Notes under the pieces: generated by a model
Database searches by the model: none
What the model saw: the letters and a program-made list of their open reading frames with translations, nothing else
Told to the model about the DNA's origin: nothing
Part shown: positions 2,947-58,596 of the stretch, in pieces
How positions within the stretch are numbered: position 1 is the first letter of the stretch
How the letters are laid out: every line of letters begins with the position of its first letter
Translations under genes and position numbers: made by a program
Assembly (NCBI RefSeq): GCF_001553265.1
Contig: NZ_KQ960601.1
Location: forward strand, 62,001-126,000
Origin: Prevotella sp. DNF00663
Lineage (GTDB): Bacteria; Bacteroidota; Bacteroidia; Bacteroidales; Bacteroidaceae
Length of the DNA stretch: 64,000 nucleotides
Direction: 5' to 3'

Positions 2947-3002
2947 AGTTGATAGCAAGCAGTTTGTAGACACTTTGAATATAGACTGTTAACTATAAGA
3001 CA

Positions 3003-3065
3003 TAAAAAAAGGAGTACCGCTGTACTCCAACCTTGTTAACCTTAAATCTAATACTATGAAAAACA
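3003..3065 (-). ncRNA. Candidate small RNA, about 60 nt, ending in an intrinsic terminator
   Basis: Starting about 7 bases past the perfect promoter (3101-3071), a minus-strand transcript would begin near 3064. It would run through an unstructured A/T-rich stretch and end in the hairpin GGAGTAC-AGCG-GTACTCC (3028-3011) followed by seven T residues (3010-3004). This is a complete promoter-to-terminator unit with no credible reading frame. It lies between the convergent 2946 and 3541 gene ends. Not identified with any named RNA; tmRNA, RNase P and 6S RNA are excluded by size. Confidence 0.5.
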
Positions 3066-3070
3066 CATTG

Positions 3071-8197: not shown

Positions 8198-9910
8198 TTA
8201 TTCAGTAGCACGGAAACTCTCAAGACTGTCTGCATCGAAGTTATTGATGTAAGTCGCATGACCACAAACCTCTTCCTCAGCATGACGAACATATACGTTA
8301 GCACTCTTGGTAAAGAGTTCTGGAGCACGATTAGCATCGTCAATGATAAGCAATGACATGATGATATCAGCCGTCATATCGTACAAACGACGAGCTAAGA
8401 AGTCTTGTACCTCTTGATTATCGGCTGCTTTCACCCCCTCTAAAGCTTCCTCATAGAGAGCCACGAGTTTAGCTGTACGAGCTTGTAAAGGCTTGAAAGC
8501 ATCAGAAACCTCTGTCTCTAACATCTCTTTCATGATGCCAAGATAAGTTCCATTGGTGATATAACGGATGGCAGCAACCACTTGTAGCTGCGTGGTACCT
8601 TCGTAGATAGAGAAGATACGAGCATCGCGGAACAAGCGTTGGCTCTTGTATTCCATGATAAAACCAGAACCACCATGGATACTGATAGCATCGTAAGCAT
8701 TCTGATTGGAATATTCTGAGTTCATACCCTTAGCCAAAGGAGTAAACGCATCGGCCAAACGTGTGTACTTTTTCTGTTCCTGTCGCTCTTCTGGAGTGAG
8801 TTTACGATCGCGTGAAATATCGTCAAGAGCCTTGTAAATATCCACATAACGAGCCGTCTGATAAAGCAATGAACGACCGGCATCCAGCTTCGCCTTCATA
8901 CGTGAAAGCATGTCATAGACAGCCGGAAATTCGATGATCTTCTTGCCAAACTGGGTACGATCTTTAGCATAAGCAAGTCCTTCGTTGTAAGCTTCCTGCT
9001 CTACGCCGACGCTCTGTGCTGCAATTCCAAGGCGAGCACCATTCATCAAGGCCATCACATACTTGATAAGTCCGAGACGAGTACTACCACATAGCTCTGC
9101 CTTAGCATTCTTATAAGTAAGCTCACAAGTAGGAGAACCGTGGATACCGAGTTTATGTTCGATGTGACGAACGTCTACTCCACCATCGCGTTTATCGTAA
9201 ATAAACATAGAAAGTCCACGTCCGTCGTGTGTTCCTTCTTCCGAACGAGCCAATACCAAGTGGATATCTGAATCGCCATTGGTAATGAAACGCTTCACAC
9301 CATTGAGCCTCCAACAGTTTTCTTTCTCGTCGAATGTAGCCTTCAACATTACACGTTGCAAGTCGGAACCGGCATCCGGTTCGGTCAAATCCATTGACAT
9401 CGTCTCGCCGGCACAGATACGTGGGATGTATTTTTGGCATTGTTCTTCTGTTCCAAACTCATAAAGCGTGTCGATACAAGACTGTAAACTCCATATATTT
9501 TGGAATCCTGCATCAGCGGCAGAGATGATTTCAGAGAGCATAGAGAACACTACATTGGGCAGATTGAGTCCACCAAAGCGACGTGGCATGGATATTCCCC
9601 ACAGTCCGGCCTTACGTGTTGCGTCCAAATTCTCGTATGTTTTGCTTGCATAAATCATGCGTCCATTCTCCAAGTGTGGCCCTTCAATATCCACATCTTC
9701 CGAGTTTGGCTCAATGATATTAGCCGCTACATCACCTGTAATATCCAAGATACGCTTGTAATTTTCAATCGCATCCTCATAATTTACGGGTGCATCTTCA
9801 AACTGTTCCTTCTCTACGAAGTTACGTTCCTTTAGTTCTACGATGCGTTTCATCAGAGGATGATTCAAGTGGAATCCTATCTCTGGATGGTCTGTATAAT
9901 AGTTTGCCAT
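8198..9910 (-). CDS. Acyl-CoA dehydrogenase family flavoprotein
   Basis: A 570-residue FAD enzyme that should oxidise an acyl-CoA to the enoyl-CoA and pass electrons to the ETF encoded just upstream. Visible family blocks are SMDLTEPDAGSDLQ (about 172-185), FITNGDSDIHLVLARS, ARLGIAAQSVGVEQEAYN, FGKKIIEFPAVYDML and DAISIHGGSGFIMEYKSQRLFRDARI, the C-terminal FAD and catalytic region. It is longer than the usual 380-residue enzymes, with N- and C-terminal extensions like the large bacterial FadE-like or AidB-like forms. The substrate cannot be told. It is the last gene of the etfB-etfA set, though a repeat-flanked cassette now separates it from etfA. Confidence 0.9.
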   Translation of the reverse strand: MANYYTDHPEIGFHLNHPLMKRIVELKERNFVEKEQFEDAPVNYEDAIENYKRILDITGDVAANIIEPNSEDVDIEGPHLENGRMIYASKTYENLDATRKAGLWGISMPRRFGGLNLPNVVFSMLSEIISAADAGFQNIWSLQSCIDTLYEFGTEEQCQKYIPRICAGETMSMDLTEPDAGSDLQRVMLKATFDEKENCWRLNGVKRFITNGDSDIHLVLARSEEGTHDGRGLSMFIYDKRDGGVDVRHIEHKLGIHGSPTCELTYKNAKAELCGSTRLGLIKYVMALMNGARLGIAAQSVGVEQEAYNEGLAYAKDRTQFGKKIIEFPAVYDMLSRMKAKLDAGRSLLYQTARYVDIYKALDDISRDRKLTPEERQEQKKYTRLADAFTPLAKGMNSEYSNQNAYDAISIHGGSGFIMEYKSQRLFRDARIFSIYEGTTQLQVVAAIRYITNGTYLGIMKEMLETEVSDAFKPLQARTAKLVALYEEALEGVKAADNQEVQDFLARRLYDMTADIIMSLLIIDDANRAPELFTKSANVYVRHAEEEVCGHATYINNFDADSLESFRATE

Positions 9911-9930
9911 GTTATTATCGTTTATGGTAG

Positions 9931-9980
9931 GTAACTGAAGTTATCTGAAGTTAAGCGCTACGCGCCGGAGTTAACAGACA
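9931..9980 (+). repeat. R2 repeat, left end of the four-helix-bundle cassette
   Basis: Contains TAACTGAAGTTAT (9932-9944), a second GAAGTTAA, a GCGC-TAC-GCGC hairpin (9955-9965) and CGGAGTTAACAGAC (9966-9979). The first and last of these recur inverted at 10433-10445 and 10392-10401, and CGGAGTTAACAGAC recurs exactly at 58481-58494. Confidence 0.7.
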
Positions 9981-10061
9981 ATAGCTTATCTATGATTGAG
10001 CATCTTGCTCTTTTTGTAAAGCATGGTTTTCCACAATTCCCTTTACATAAGCATTGAGAAA

Positions 10062-10382
10062 CTAACTTGTCTTTTCTATTTGGGTGTTCAATTCCAAATA
10101 TTTATCCTCATTAATATATCCCAAATCGTGCGAAAGAATGATATAATAACGACACTCTTCCAAACTTCCTTGAGCTATATTCATAAACTTGAGCTTATCA
10201 GCTTTGGATAGTTTACGATAGTCTTCCGATATATTTGCTGCAATAGATACTGCTGCACGCTGGAATTGAGAGGTAAGTCCAAACTTCTCTTCATTTGGAA
10301 ACATCTTTGTAACTCCATACACACGCAATACAAAATCGTGTGCTTCTCTCCAAGCAATAATATCGGTAAAACTATTCGCCAT
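10062..10382 (-). CDS. Four-helix-bundle protein (S23/IVS-encoded family), C-terminus cut by in-frame TAG
   Basis: A 106-residue protein with the family blocks IIAWREAHDFVLRVY, FPNEEKFGLTSQFQRAAVSI, ANISEDYRK and AQGSLEECRYYIILSHDLGYI. The family includes proteins encoded inside 23S rRNA intervening sequences and the Avd accessory of diversity-generating retroelements; its role here is unknown. The frame continues beyond the TAG at 10062-10064 as FLNAYVKGIVENHALQ, matching the usual family C-terminus, until a TAG at 9990. The gene therefore looks interrupted by one nonsense change, or is read through. It sits exactly inside two nested inverted repeats between etfA and the dehydrogenase gene, which suggests insertion into an existing operon. 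Confidence 0.85.
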   Translation of the reverse strand: MANSFTDIIAWREAHDFVLRVYGVTKMFPNEEKFGLTSQFQRAAVSIAANISEDYRKLSKADKLKFMNIAQGSLEECRYYIILSHDLGYINEDKYLELNTQIEKTS

Positions 10383-10390
10383 AAGACATT

Positions 10391-10450
10391 GGTCTGTTAA
10401 CTTCCGTCGGTCAAAAGACCGACTAAATCCTAATAACTTCCGTTATCTCC
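10391..10450 (-). repeat. R2 repeat, right end of the four-helix-bundle cassette
   Basis: Read on the minus strand it carries TAACGGAAGTTAT (10445-10433), a hairpin GTCGGTC-TTTT-GACCGAC (10423-10406) and GTTAACAGAC (10401-10392). The outer and inner sequences are inverted copies of those at 9932-9944 and 9970-9979, so the 514 bases between form a compound inverted-repeat unit. Confidence 0.7.
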
Positions 10451-10460
10451 TATTCTTTTA

Positions 10461-11492
10461 TTATTTGCTATTCTGTTTATAATACTTAATGAGTTTCGGA
10501 ACAACCTCTTCTACCGTACCATTGATGATATAATCGGCGATTTTGTTAATCGGAGCATCCGGATCATTATTAATAGAGATGATGATTCCGGCATCTTGCA
10601 TACCTGCAATGTGCTGAATCTGACCTGAGATACCACAAGCAATATATACCTTTGGATGAACGGTAACGCCTGTTTGACCAATCTGACGGTCGTGGTCTAC
10701 CCAACCGGCATCCACAGCTGCACGACTGGCACCAACTTCTCCATGAAGTTCTTTAGCCAACTGGAAAAGCTGTTCAAAGCCCTCTTTGCTGCCAACACCA
10801 TAACCACCGGCTACTACAATAGCACTACCTTTCAAATTGTTTTGCGCTGCTTCCACATGGCGGTCAATGACTTTTACCACGTAATCGGTCTCTGGTACAT
10901 ATTTAGCTACATCAGGATATACGACTTCGCCTTTTGCTTGTCCCTCATATATAGCCTTCTGCATTACACCAGAACGAACCGTTGCCATCTGAGGACGGTG
11001 GTCTGGATTCACGATAGTAGCCACGATGTTACCGCCAAAAGCCGGACGAATCTGATAAAGCATGTTCTCATAGTGCTTACCGGTCTTCTTATCGTCGTAG
11101 TCACCAATCTCTAATTGTGTACAATCGGCAGTCAAGCCAGAGGTCAATGAAGAAGATACGCGGGGACCAAGGTCACGTCCTATCACCGTAGCACCCATCA
11201 AAGCGATTTGGGGTTGCTCCTCTTTAAACAGATTTACGAGTATATCTGTATGGGGAGCAGAGGTGTAAGGAAATAGTCTTTCTGCGTCGAATACAAACAA
11301 TTTATCCACACCATAGGGCAGTATCTGATCTTCAACCTTGCCTTTGATATCTGTTCCGGCAACAATAGCATGCAGGTCTACGCCCAGCTGATTAGCCAGT
11401 TTACGGCCCTTGGTCAGCAATTCTTGAGATACTTCAGCTACTTCTGTGCCTTCAATCTCACAATATACAAATACGTTATTCATAATGATCAA
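10461..11492 (-). CDS. etfA: Electron transfer flavoprotein, alpha subunit
   Basis: A 343-residue FAD-binding subunit that with EtfB accepts electrons from acyl-CoA dehydrogenases. The C-terminal FAD domain shows GGYGVGSKEGFEQLFQLA, GEVGASRAAVDAGWVDHDRQ, GQTGVTVHPKVYIACGISG and IISINNDPDAPINKIADY, all standard. The N-terminal third is the AMP/Rossmann-like domain. It follows etfB by 69 bases; that gap holds a TATGAGTTTATGAGT-like low-complexity stretch (about 11495-11545). The start is ATG at 11492; an ATG three codons later is also possible. Confidence 0.95.
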   Translation of the reverse strand: MIIMNNVFVYCEIEGTEVAEVSQELLTKGRKLANQLGVDLHAIVAGTDIKGKVEDQILPYGVDKLFVFDAERLFPYTSAPHTDILVNLFKEEQPQIALMGATVIGRDLGPRVSSSLTSGLTADCTQLEIGDYDDKKTGKHYENMLYQIRPAFGGNIVATIVNPDHRPQMATVRSGVMQKAIYEGQAKGEVVYPDVAKYVPETDYVVKVIDRHVEAAQNNLKGSAIVVAGGYGVGSKEGFEQLFQLAKELHGEVGASRAAVDAGWVDHDRQIGQTGVTVHPKVYIACGISGQIQHIAGMQDAGIIISINNDPDAPINKIADYIINGTVEEVVPKLIKYYKQNSK

Positions 11493-58432: not shown

Positions 58433-58545
58433 GGAAGTTATCGGGAGTTAAACATCTCTTCGAGACGTTGGAATAATTAACGGAGTTAACAGACACATGT
58501 CCGTTTACTTCAAGCAGCTAAGCAGCTTTAACTCCCGACAACTCC
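58433..58545. repeat. R2 element without gene, between adenylase and carrier genes
   Basis: A 113-base element with near-perfect terminal inverted repeats: GGAAGTTATCGGGAGTTAAA (58433-58452) and TTTAACTCCCGACAACTCC (58527-58545). Inside is CGGAGTTAACAGAC (58481-58494), identical to 9966-9979 in the four-helix-bundle cassette. It fills most of the 179-base gap of the operon and looks like a MITE-type insertion. Confidence 0.75.
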
Positions 58546-58596
58546 TATACATATCTTAAGGAAATCAAGCAACATTATATAAAAAGAGACATCAAA

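Follow-up and report, generated by a model that had tools for sequence, protein, structure and literature searches.

In Prevotella, genes for four-helix-bundle (FHB) proteins are typically found between two inverted arms made of short tandem words. Gene-less hairpins of the same words are found elsewhere in the same genomes. Taken together, the genes and hairpins have the appearance of a mobile-element family about which little is known. The reading favoured here, to which we assign a probability of roughly 0.55, is that these are hairpin cassettes similar to the intervening sequences (IVSs) of 23S rRNA, located outside rRNA, and that the FHB protein probably reads the hairpins of its own word and contributes in trans to their upkeep or spread.

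The starting point is one such cassette in the window, which is the whole stretch of 64,000 nucleotides that was analysed. The initial annotation had proposed a repeat family that comes with and without an FHB gene. This is strongly supported: arms are found at 96% of Prevotella FHB genes, hairpins that have the same words but no gene are common in the same genomes, and etfA junctions exist that are empty.

The cassette in the etf operon

The gene had been described as enclosed by two nested inverted repeats. The repeats are where they were said to be. The outer arms are TAACTGAAGTTAT at 9932-9944 and an inverse near-copy at 10433-10445 (12 of 13 bases matching), while the inner arms are GTTAACAGAC at 9970-9979 and its exact inverse at 10392-10401. 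The FHB gene lies between the inner arms and parts etfA from the acyl-CoA dehydrogenase gene. The nesting itself did not survive: in the fold, both pairs of repeats belong to one stem, which looks nested because two opposed side hairpins interrupt it. A default repeat finder reports no inverted repeats at this locus, since the arm pieces are short and interrupted. Table 1 lists the parts.

Table 1. Parts of the window cassette, its neighbours and a gene-less relative.
Feature	Position	Strand	Remark
FHB gene, PF05635/TIGR02436, 106 aa	10062..10382	minus	TAG end inside profile match
5' arm of stem, upstream of the FHB gene on its strand	10381..10450	minus	words CGGAAGTTA / CGGAAGTTAACAGAC; inner end overlaps start codon
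Side hairpin GTCGGTCTTTTGACCGAC in 5' arm	10406..10423	minus	
3' arm of stem	9926..9990	minus	GTCTGTTAACTCC ... TTAACTTCAGATAACTTCAGTTA
Side hairpin GCGCGTAGCGC in 3' arm, opposite the 5'-arm one	~9955..9967	minus	bounds approximate
etfA, upstream neighbour	10461..11492	minus	5' arm begins ~10 bp past etfA stop codon
Acyl-CoA dehydrogenase gene, downstream neighbour	8198..9910	minus	
Gene-less hairpin	58433..58548	.	words as in window cassette, same inner motif GGAGTTAACAGACA

The minus-strand RNA of 9925-10452 (528 nt) is predicted to form one closed stem that encloses the ORF, with a folding energy of -159.7 kcal/mol. Shuffled sequences reach -118.6 +/- 5.5 (z = -7.5), and none of 100 shuffles does as well. 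The L051 cassette similarly folds as one stem around its ORF, with z = -10.2. The gene-less element that had been noted near 58433 is real, and folds as a branched hairpin.

Measured by flank complementarity, the window copy is borderline. It scores 13.5, where the 95th percentile is 14 for cross-paired flanks and 12.5 for control ORFs. Three copies that share the inner motif with the window (L034, G004 and L129) have different sequences at or near the side-hairpin positions. When their arms are co-folded, these parts pair across the stem, or form hairpins only partly. Among copies with this inner motif, it is the window copy for which a predicted four-way junction has the best support.

The fold places the FHB start codon (10380-10385) at the inner end of the predicted stem, so that opening of the stem could gate FHB translation in the window cassette.

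The window protein is well above the curated cut-offs of its family, with 120.4 versus 33.8 bits for PF05635 (23S_rRNA_IVP) and 108.4 versus 24 for TIGR02436. This is the protein family of the 23S rRNA IVSs. There are solved structures among the relatives (2gsc and 2rld, five chains each). The window gene ends in a TAG (10062-10064); relatives have Trp there and continue for some 20 more residues. Given that the profile match extends through the TAG and that relatives read on, this copy is C-terminally truncated. It is for that reason probably decaying, and the argument made here rests on the relatives of this decayed member. Elsewhere in this genome, the FHB genes L001 and L002 are intact, and L004 has an internal TGA.

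Arms, sites and gene-less hairpins across genomes

That such arms go with FHB genes in related genomes is borne out. The sample includes metagenome assemblies, and its gene calls are crude. For 103 Prevotella FHB genes, the upstream flank was compared with the downstream one; the best complementary match scores 25.5 in the median and above 12.5 in 96%, versus 7.5% when the flanks come from different genes. For 298 control ORFs from these loci, the median is 9 and the 95th percentile 12.5. In minimum-energy folds, 94% are closed by a stem of 15 bp or more, versus 59% with the 3' flank swapped. The 5' arms consist of tandem words: 82% are periodic, mostly at 7-8 nt, versus 10% after shuffling. 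Examples of words are GGAGTTAA, GTTGACGA, GTCGTTTA, GAGGTGA, TAGTTCA and GTTGAGC. Words are highly different from element to element and concordant inside each one.

Arms are also found outside Prevotella. In other Bacteroidota they are present at 59% of 29 FHB genes, versus 0.7% for mispaired flanks. On ten cyanobacterial plasmids, FHB genes lie between inverted arrays of short words, many of them heptamers (AGGAGTC, AAAAGCT). Nine of these ten score at least 19, with a mispaired control that is also high, one word being common to several plasmids. CRISPR operons contain three such word-armed genes, one of them flanked by cas10 and a Cmr3-family gene (L368), the other two by cas6 and cas4 (L371, L372). 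Phages yielded only three distant matches to Avd.

FHB cassettes usually run inside core operons. Crude ORF calls on 95 elements put 74 in strictly the same direction as both neighbours; the median distance from the stop codon of the upstream gene to the 5' arm is 4 bp. The sites also recur. Both neighbours are common to another element in 57 of 90 cases, and there are 143 pairs with shared neighbours, where equal use of 300-1000 junctions would give some 4-13. As read from flanking residues, recurrent sites include etfA/acyl-CoA dehydrogenase, plus what we take to be sdhA-sdhB and pta-ackA. One junction can host different FHB clades and different words; GTTGACRAG arms and GTCGTTTRG arms, for instance, both occur at the putative sdhA-sdhB site. 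At two recurrent sites, FHB identity does not rise with neighbour identity (r = 0.10 over 78 pairs and -0.34 over 21 pairs). Such a pattern seems unlike simple vertical descent, although the neighbours vary little.

The etfA/dehydrogenase junction was surveyed in 80 Prevotellaceae species, and its occupancy counted by eye. The empty site that the initial annotation had suggested looking for does exist: in about 40 species, or half, the gap is at most 35 bp. Six have an FHB cassette (L016, L034, L044, L049, L051, L072), and around eight a gene-less word hairpin. Another five have CCCCTCTCC arms with a DUF559 gene (L007, L013, L057, L062, L084), and two have a GxxExxY gene. The gene is thus not at this locus in all relatives, nor do the arms lack an association with FHB genes elsewhere. 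The etfB-etfA junction displays a like mixture of empty, gene-less and gene-bearing states, also among close relatives.

The direction of change is less clear. L035 is empty and G004 has an FHB cassette, while their etfA genes are 96.8% identical. As L034 (90%) carries the element of G004, a gain in G004 and a loss or replacement in L035 are equally likely.

Some changes within the arms are matched. In an orthologous gene-less hairpin, compared between L034 and L026/L025, each of the two 5'-arm changes has its exact complement in the 3' arm. The FHB cassette pairs L034/G004 and L044/L049 have unmatched arm changes however, so these comparisons suggest that pairing is favoured, but not strict.

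Gene-less copies were counted over 380-400 kb per genome. The window's own genome has four FHB elements, and 380 kb of it yielded 25 further arm clusters with their words, a few of these clusters being partial or possibly due to chance. Over three genomes and 13 elements, 65 clusters carry words of their own genome, versus a permutation mean of 34 (p = 0.003, kinship ignored). An unbiased scan for tandem-word hairpins finds 14 and 16 per 400 kb in two FHB-rich genomes and 0 and 3 in two FHB-free ones; the window's genome has 4. Two aids for describing gene-less elements were tried and given up. A C-poor 5' arm does not work as an orientation mark, because inverted arms read alike on both strands, and a strict core pattern turned out too narrow for use.

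Words also go with clades. In 60 genomes, with kinship ignored, GTTGACRAGTWGACRAG is present in 11 of the 13 with an FHB gene at the sdhA-sdhB site, versus 7 of the 47 others (p = 5e-6). Similarly, and again with kinship ignored, GTCGTTTRGTCGTTTRG is present in 4 of 4 genomes with the corresponding FHB clade (at least 78% identity), versus 6 of 56 others (p = 4e-4). Five genomes contain the window motif GRAGTTAACAGACA, with 7 occurrences in G000; in four of the five (G000, G004, G046, G058), the etf site holds an FHB gene. These associations between word, clade and genome are consistent with the FHB protein taking part in the spread of the element, which is what the initial annotation had raised as a possibility.

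The correlation between protein and word was at first read as recognition. This has been demoted: the sites recur, and linked inheritance also gives such a correlation. Part of it may therefore be shared descent. In addition, words exist without a gene of the matching clade, in G037, G044 and G028. G037 has 28 matches to GTCGTTTRGTCGTTTRG and no FHB gene of the corresponding clade, in an assembly that is 86% complete; that gene may be absent from the assembly, lost, or replaced by another FHB gene.

Two other gene families have arms of their own. DUF559 (PF04480, Vsr-like) genes, which also include L176-L205, have inverted GC-rich CCCCTCTCC-type arms at the same kind of operon junction. These arms match for 88% of 34 genes, but the mispaired flanks also reach 33%, because the arm word is shared. 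GxxExxY (PF13366, PD-(D/E)XK fold) genes (L043, L058, L206-L235) have inverted arms of words like CACGGATT/CACGAATT, matching for 86% of 29 versus 4.6% of mispaired flanks. The GxxExxY cassettes are possibly a parallel system with nuclease cargo.

Likeness to known systems

The closest anatomy is that of the IVS in the 23S rRNA of Coxiella burnetii, which is excised by RNase III (PMC4990558). It shares the S23p (PF05635) protein family, with a sense ORF in the loop of a terminal inverted-repeat stem (PMC4990558). Length is also similar, at 428 nt for the Coxiella IVS (PMC4990558) and a median of 501 bp for FHB elements. What 23S rRNA IVSs do and where they come from has been called unclear (PMC4990558). 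Unlike these, FHB cassettes lie between cistrons of protein-coding operons, have arms of tandem words, and come with many gene-less copies in the same genome.

Rfam gives no match to the window element and finds no rRNA in the window. It also gives none in 12 FHB loci, most of which have weak arms, so these are not rRNA IVSs. Elsewhere in the window, 3001-3066 (minus) matches RF04319, the Bacteroidetes FopS paralogous sRNA family, with 77.3 bits.

RAYT/REP systems consist of a Y1 (HUH) transposase gene flanked by inverted short palindromic repeats, of which many gene-less copies are dispersed in the genome. The FHB gene is likewise flanked by inverted repeat copies, and its repeat is also dispersed without a gene in the same genome. 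The protein is a different one however, a four-helix bundle and not a Y1 (HUH) enzyme, and the long stem is built from arms of tandem 7-8 nt words. No Y1 (HUH) transposase is encoded in the window cassette. Its domain matches are PF05635 and sub-threshold bAvd only, and the FHB protein has no catalytic domain. The Avd proteins of diversity-generating retroelements (DGRs), which act with nucleic acid, are remotely related four-helix bundles; the window protein stays below the Avd cut-offs (35.6 versus 80 bits, and 28.7 versus 40).

The STRR sequences of cyanobacteria are heptamer repeats. TAACTGA repeats, which are intergenic heptamers, have spread with "no mechanism evident", and a repeat-binding protein acting as a mobile element has been a speculation for heptamers of this type (PMC4679880). 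Both resemble the FHB words in being short tandem intergenic 7-nt words in Cyanobacteria and Bacteroidetes. They are described as direct repeats with no associated gene however, whereas FHB words are inverted around one. STRR/TAACTGA repeats are contiguous 7-nt direct repeats; FHB arms as a family have a period of 7-8 nt, those of cyanobacteria are heptamers, and the window arms have only a few degenerate, spaced words.

Unlike DDE transposons and MITEs, FHB elements have no target-site duplication on average. Over 103 elements, the direct-repeat score of the flanks is 4.16, versus 4.15 when mispaired, although fuzzy arm ends could hide a duplication of 2-3 bp. In the open-licence literature, no link was found between FHB, DUF559 or GxxExxY genes and inverted word arms.

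Weighing the explanations

It is proposed that FHB proteins are word readers, based on the IVS anatomy, the RAYT/REP-like population structure and the suggestion of a repeat-binding protein for heptamers. Two arms, each with a few inverted copies of a 7-8 nt word, would pair into a long stem that has the FHB gene in its loop. Because the cassette is inter-cistronic, in sense and just behind a stop codon, the gene would be transcribed by read-through. By analogy with the 23S rRNA IVSs, RNase III could cut the stem, which would free the FHB mRNA from that of the operon. The protein would then most likely recognise its own word hairpins, as RNA or as single-stranded DNA. As RAYT does for REPs, it may help to maintain or spread the cassette and its gene-less copies in trans. 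Purifying selection on the protein counts in favour of this reading. Counting against it are the lack of a target-site duplication and of a catalytic domain, the words in genomes without the clade gene, the recurrence of sites, the L035/G004 comparison, where loss is as likely as gain, and the unmatched arm changes of two cassette pairs.

The IVS likeness also allows for a more modest account, in which the cassette is a passenger at the RNA level, the mRNA counterpart of the 23S rRNA IVS. The stem would serve RNase III excision or insulation, FHB would act in cis, and the other word hairpins would be relics or host slippage. The Coxiella IVS shares protein family, sense ORF and terminal stem (PMC4990558), folds are strong, and the sense orientation immediately behind stop codons fits as well. 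Many gene-less hairpins, preferentially with the FHB words of their own genome, are more than action in cis predicts however, and these hairpins are scarce in the two FHB-free genomes. We consider this account unlikely. Slightly more unlikely still is a host regulatory system, where FHB proteins are RNA-binding regulators and gene-less hairpins are selected mRNA targets, spread by ordinary duplication and recombination. FHB proteins are indeed under strong purifying selection, with dN/dS around 0.05-0.1 (dN 0.018 and dS 0.367 for L034/G004, 0.098 and 1.03 for L116/L087). The positions between cistrons of core operons would suit regulation, and a translational role has been suggested for TAACTGA repeats (PMC4679880). 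But occupancy of the same junction is patchy in close relatives and lacking in about half of the species, and the same site has different words between species, which argues against a conserved regulon.

It could also be that FHB is an ordinary host gene between chance inverted repeats or terminators. The window arms by themselves are borderline, and FHB genes occur at the same junction in several species. The family-wide arm statistics contradict this idea, as do the empty sites at the etfA junction and the lack of a positive correlation between FHB and neighbour identity at the two recurrent sites, which makes it highly improbable. At the other end, the reading of FHB proteins as trans-acting word readers can be extended to a whole class of selfish or semi-domesticated hairpins. 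A non-catalytic FHB protein would read a tandem word, as RNA or single-stranded DNA, and drive both its genome-wide spread and its concerted change in trans. The 23S rRNA IVSs and the heptamer repeats would be products of this class, and the DUF559 and GxxExxY cassettes parallel systems with arms of their own. This extension is tentative, and we hold it to be possible, though on the doubtful side.

If FHB proteins do read their own words, this would account for common "hypothetical" genes and intergenic clutter in core operons, in Prevotella and in other bacteria. One protein family and a defined stem would then link the questions around 23S rRNA IVSs and heptamer repeats, making both directly testable.
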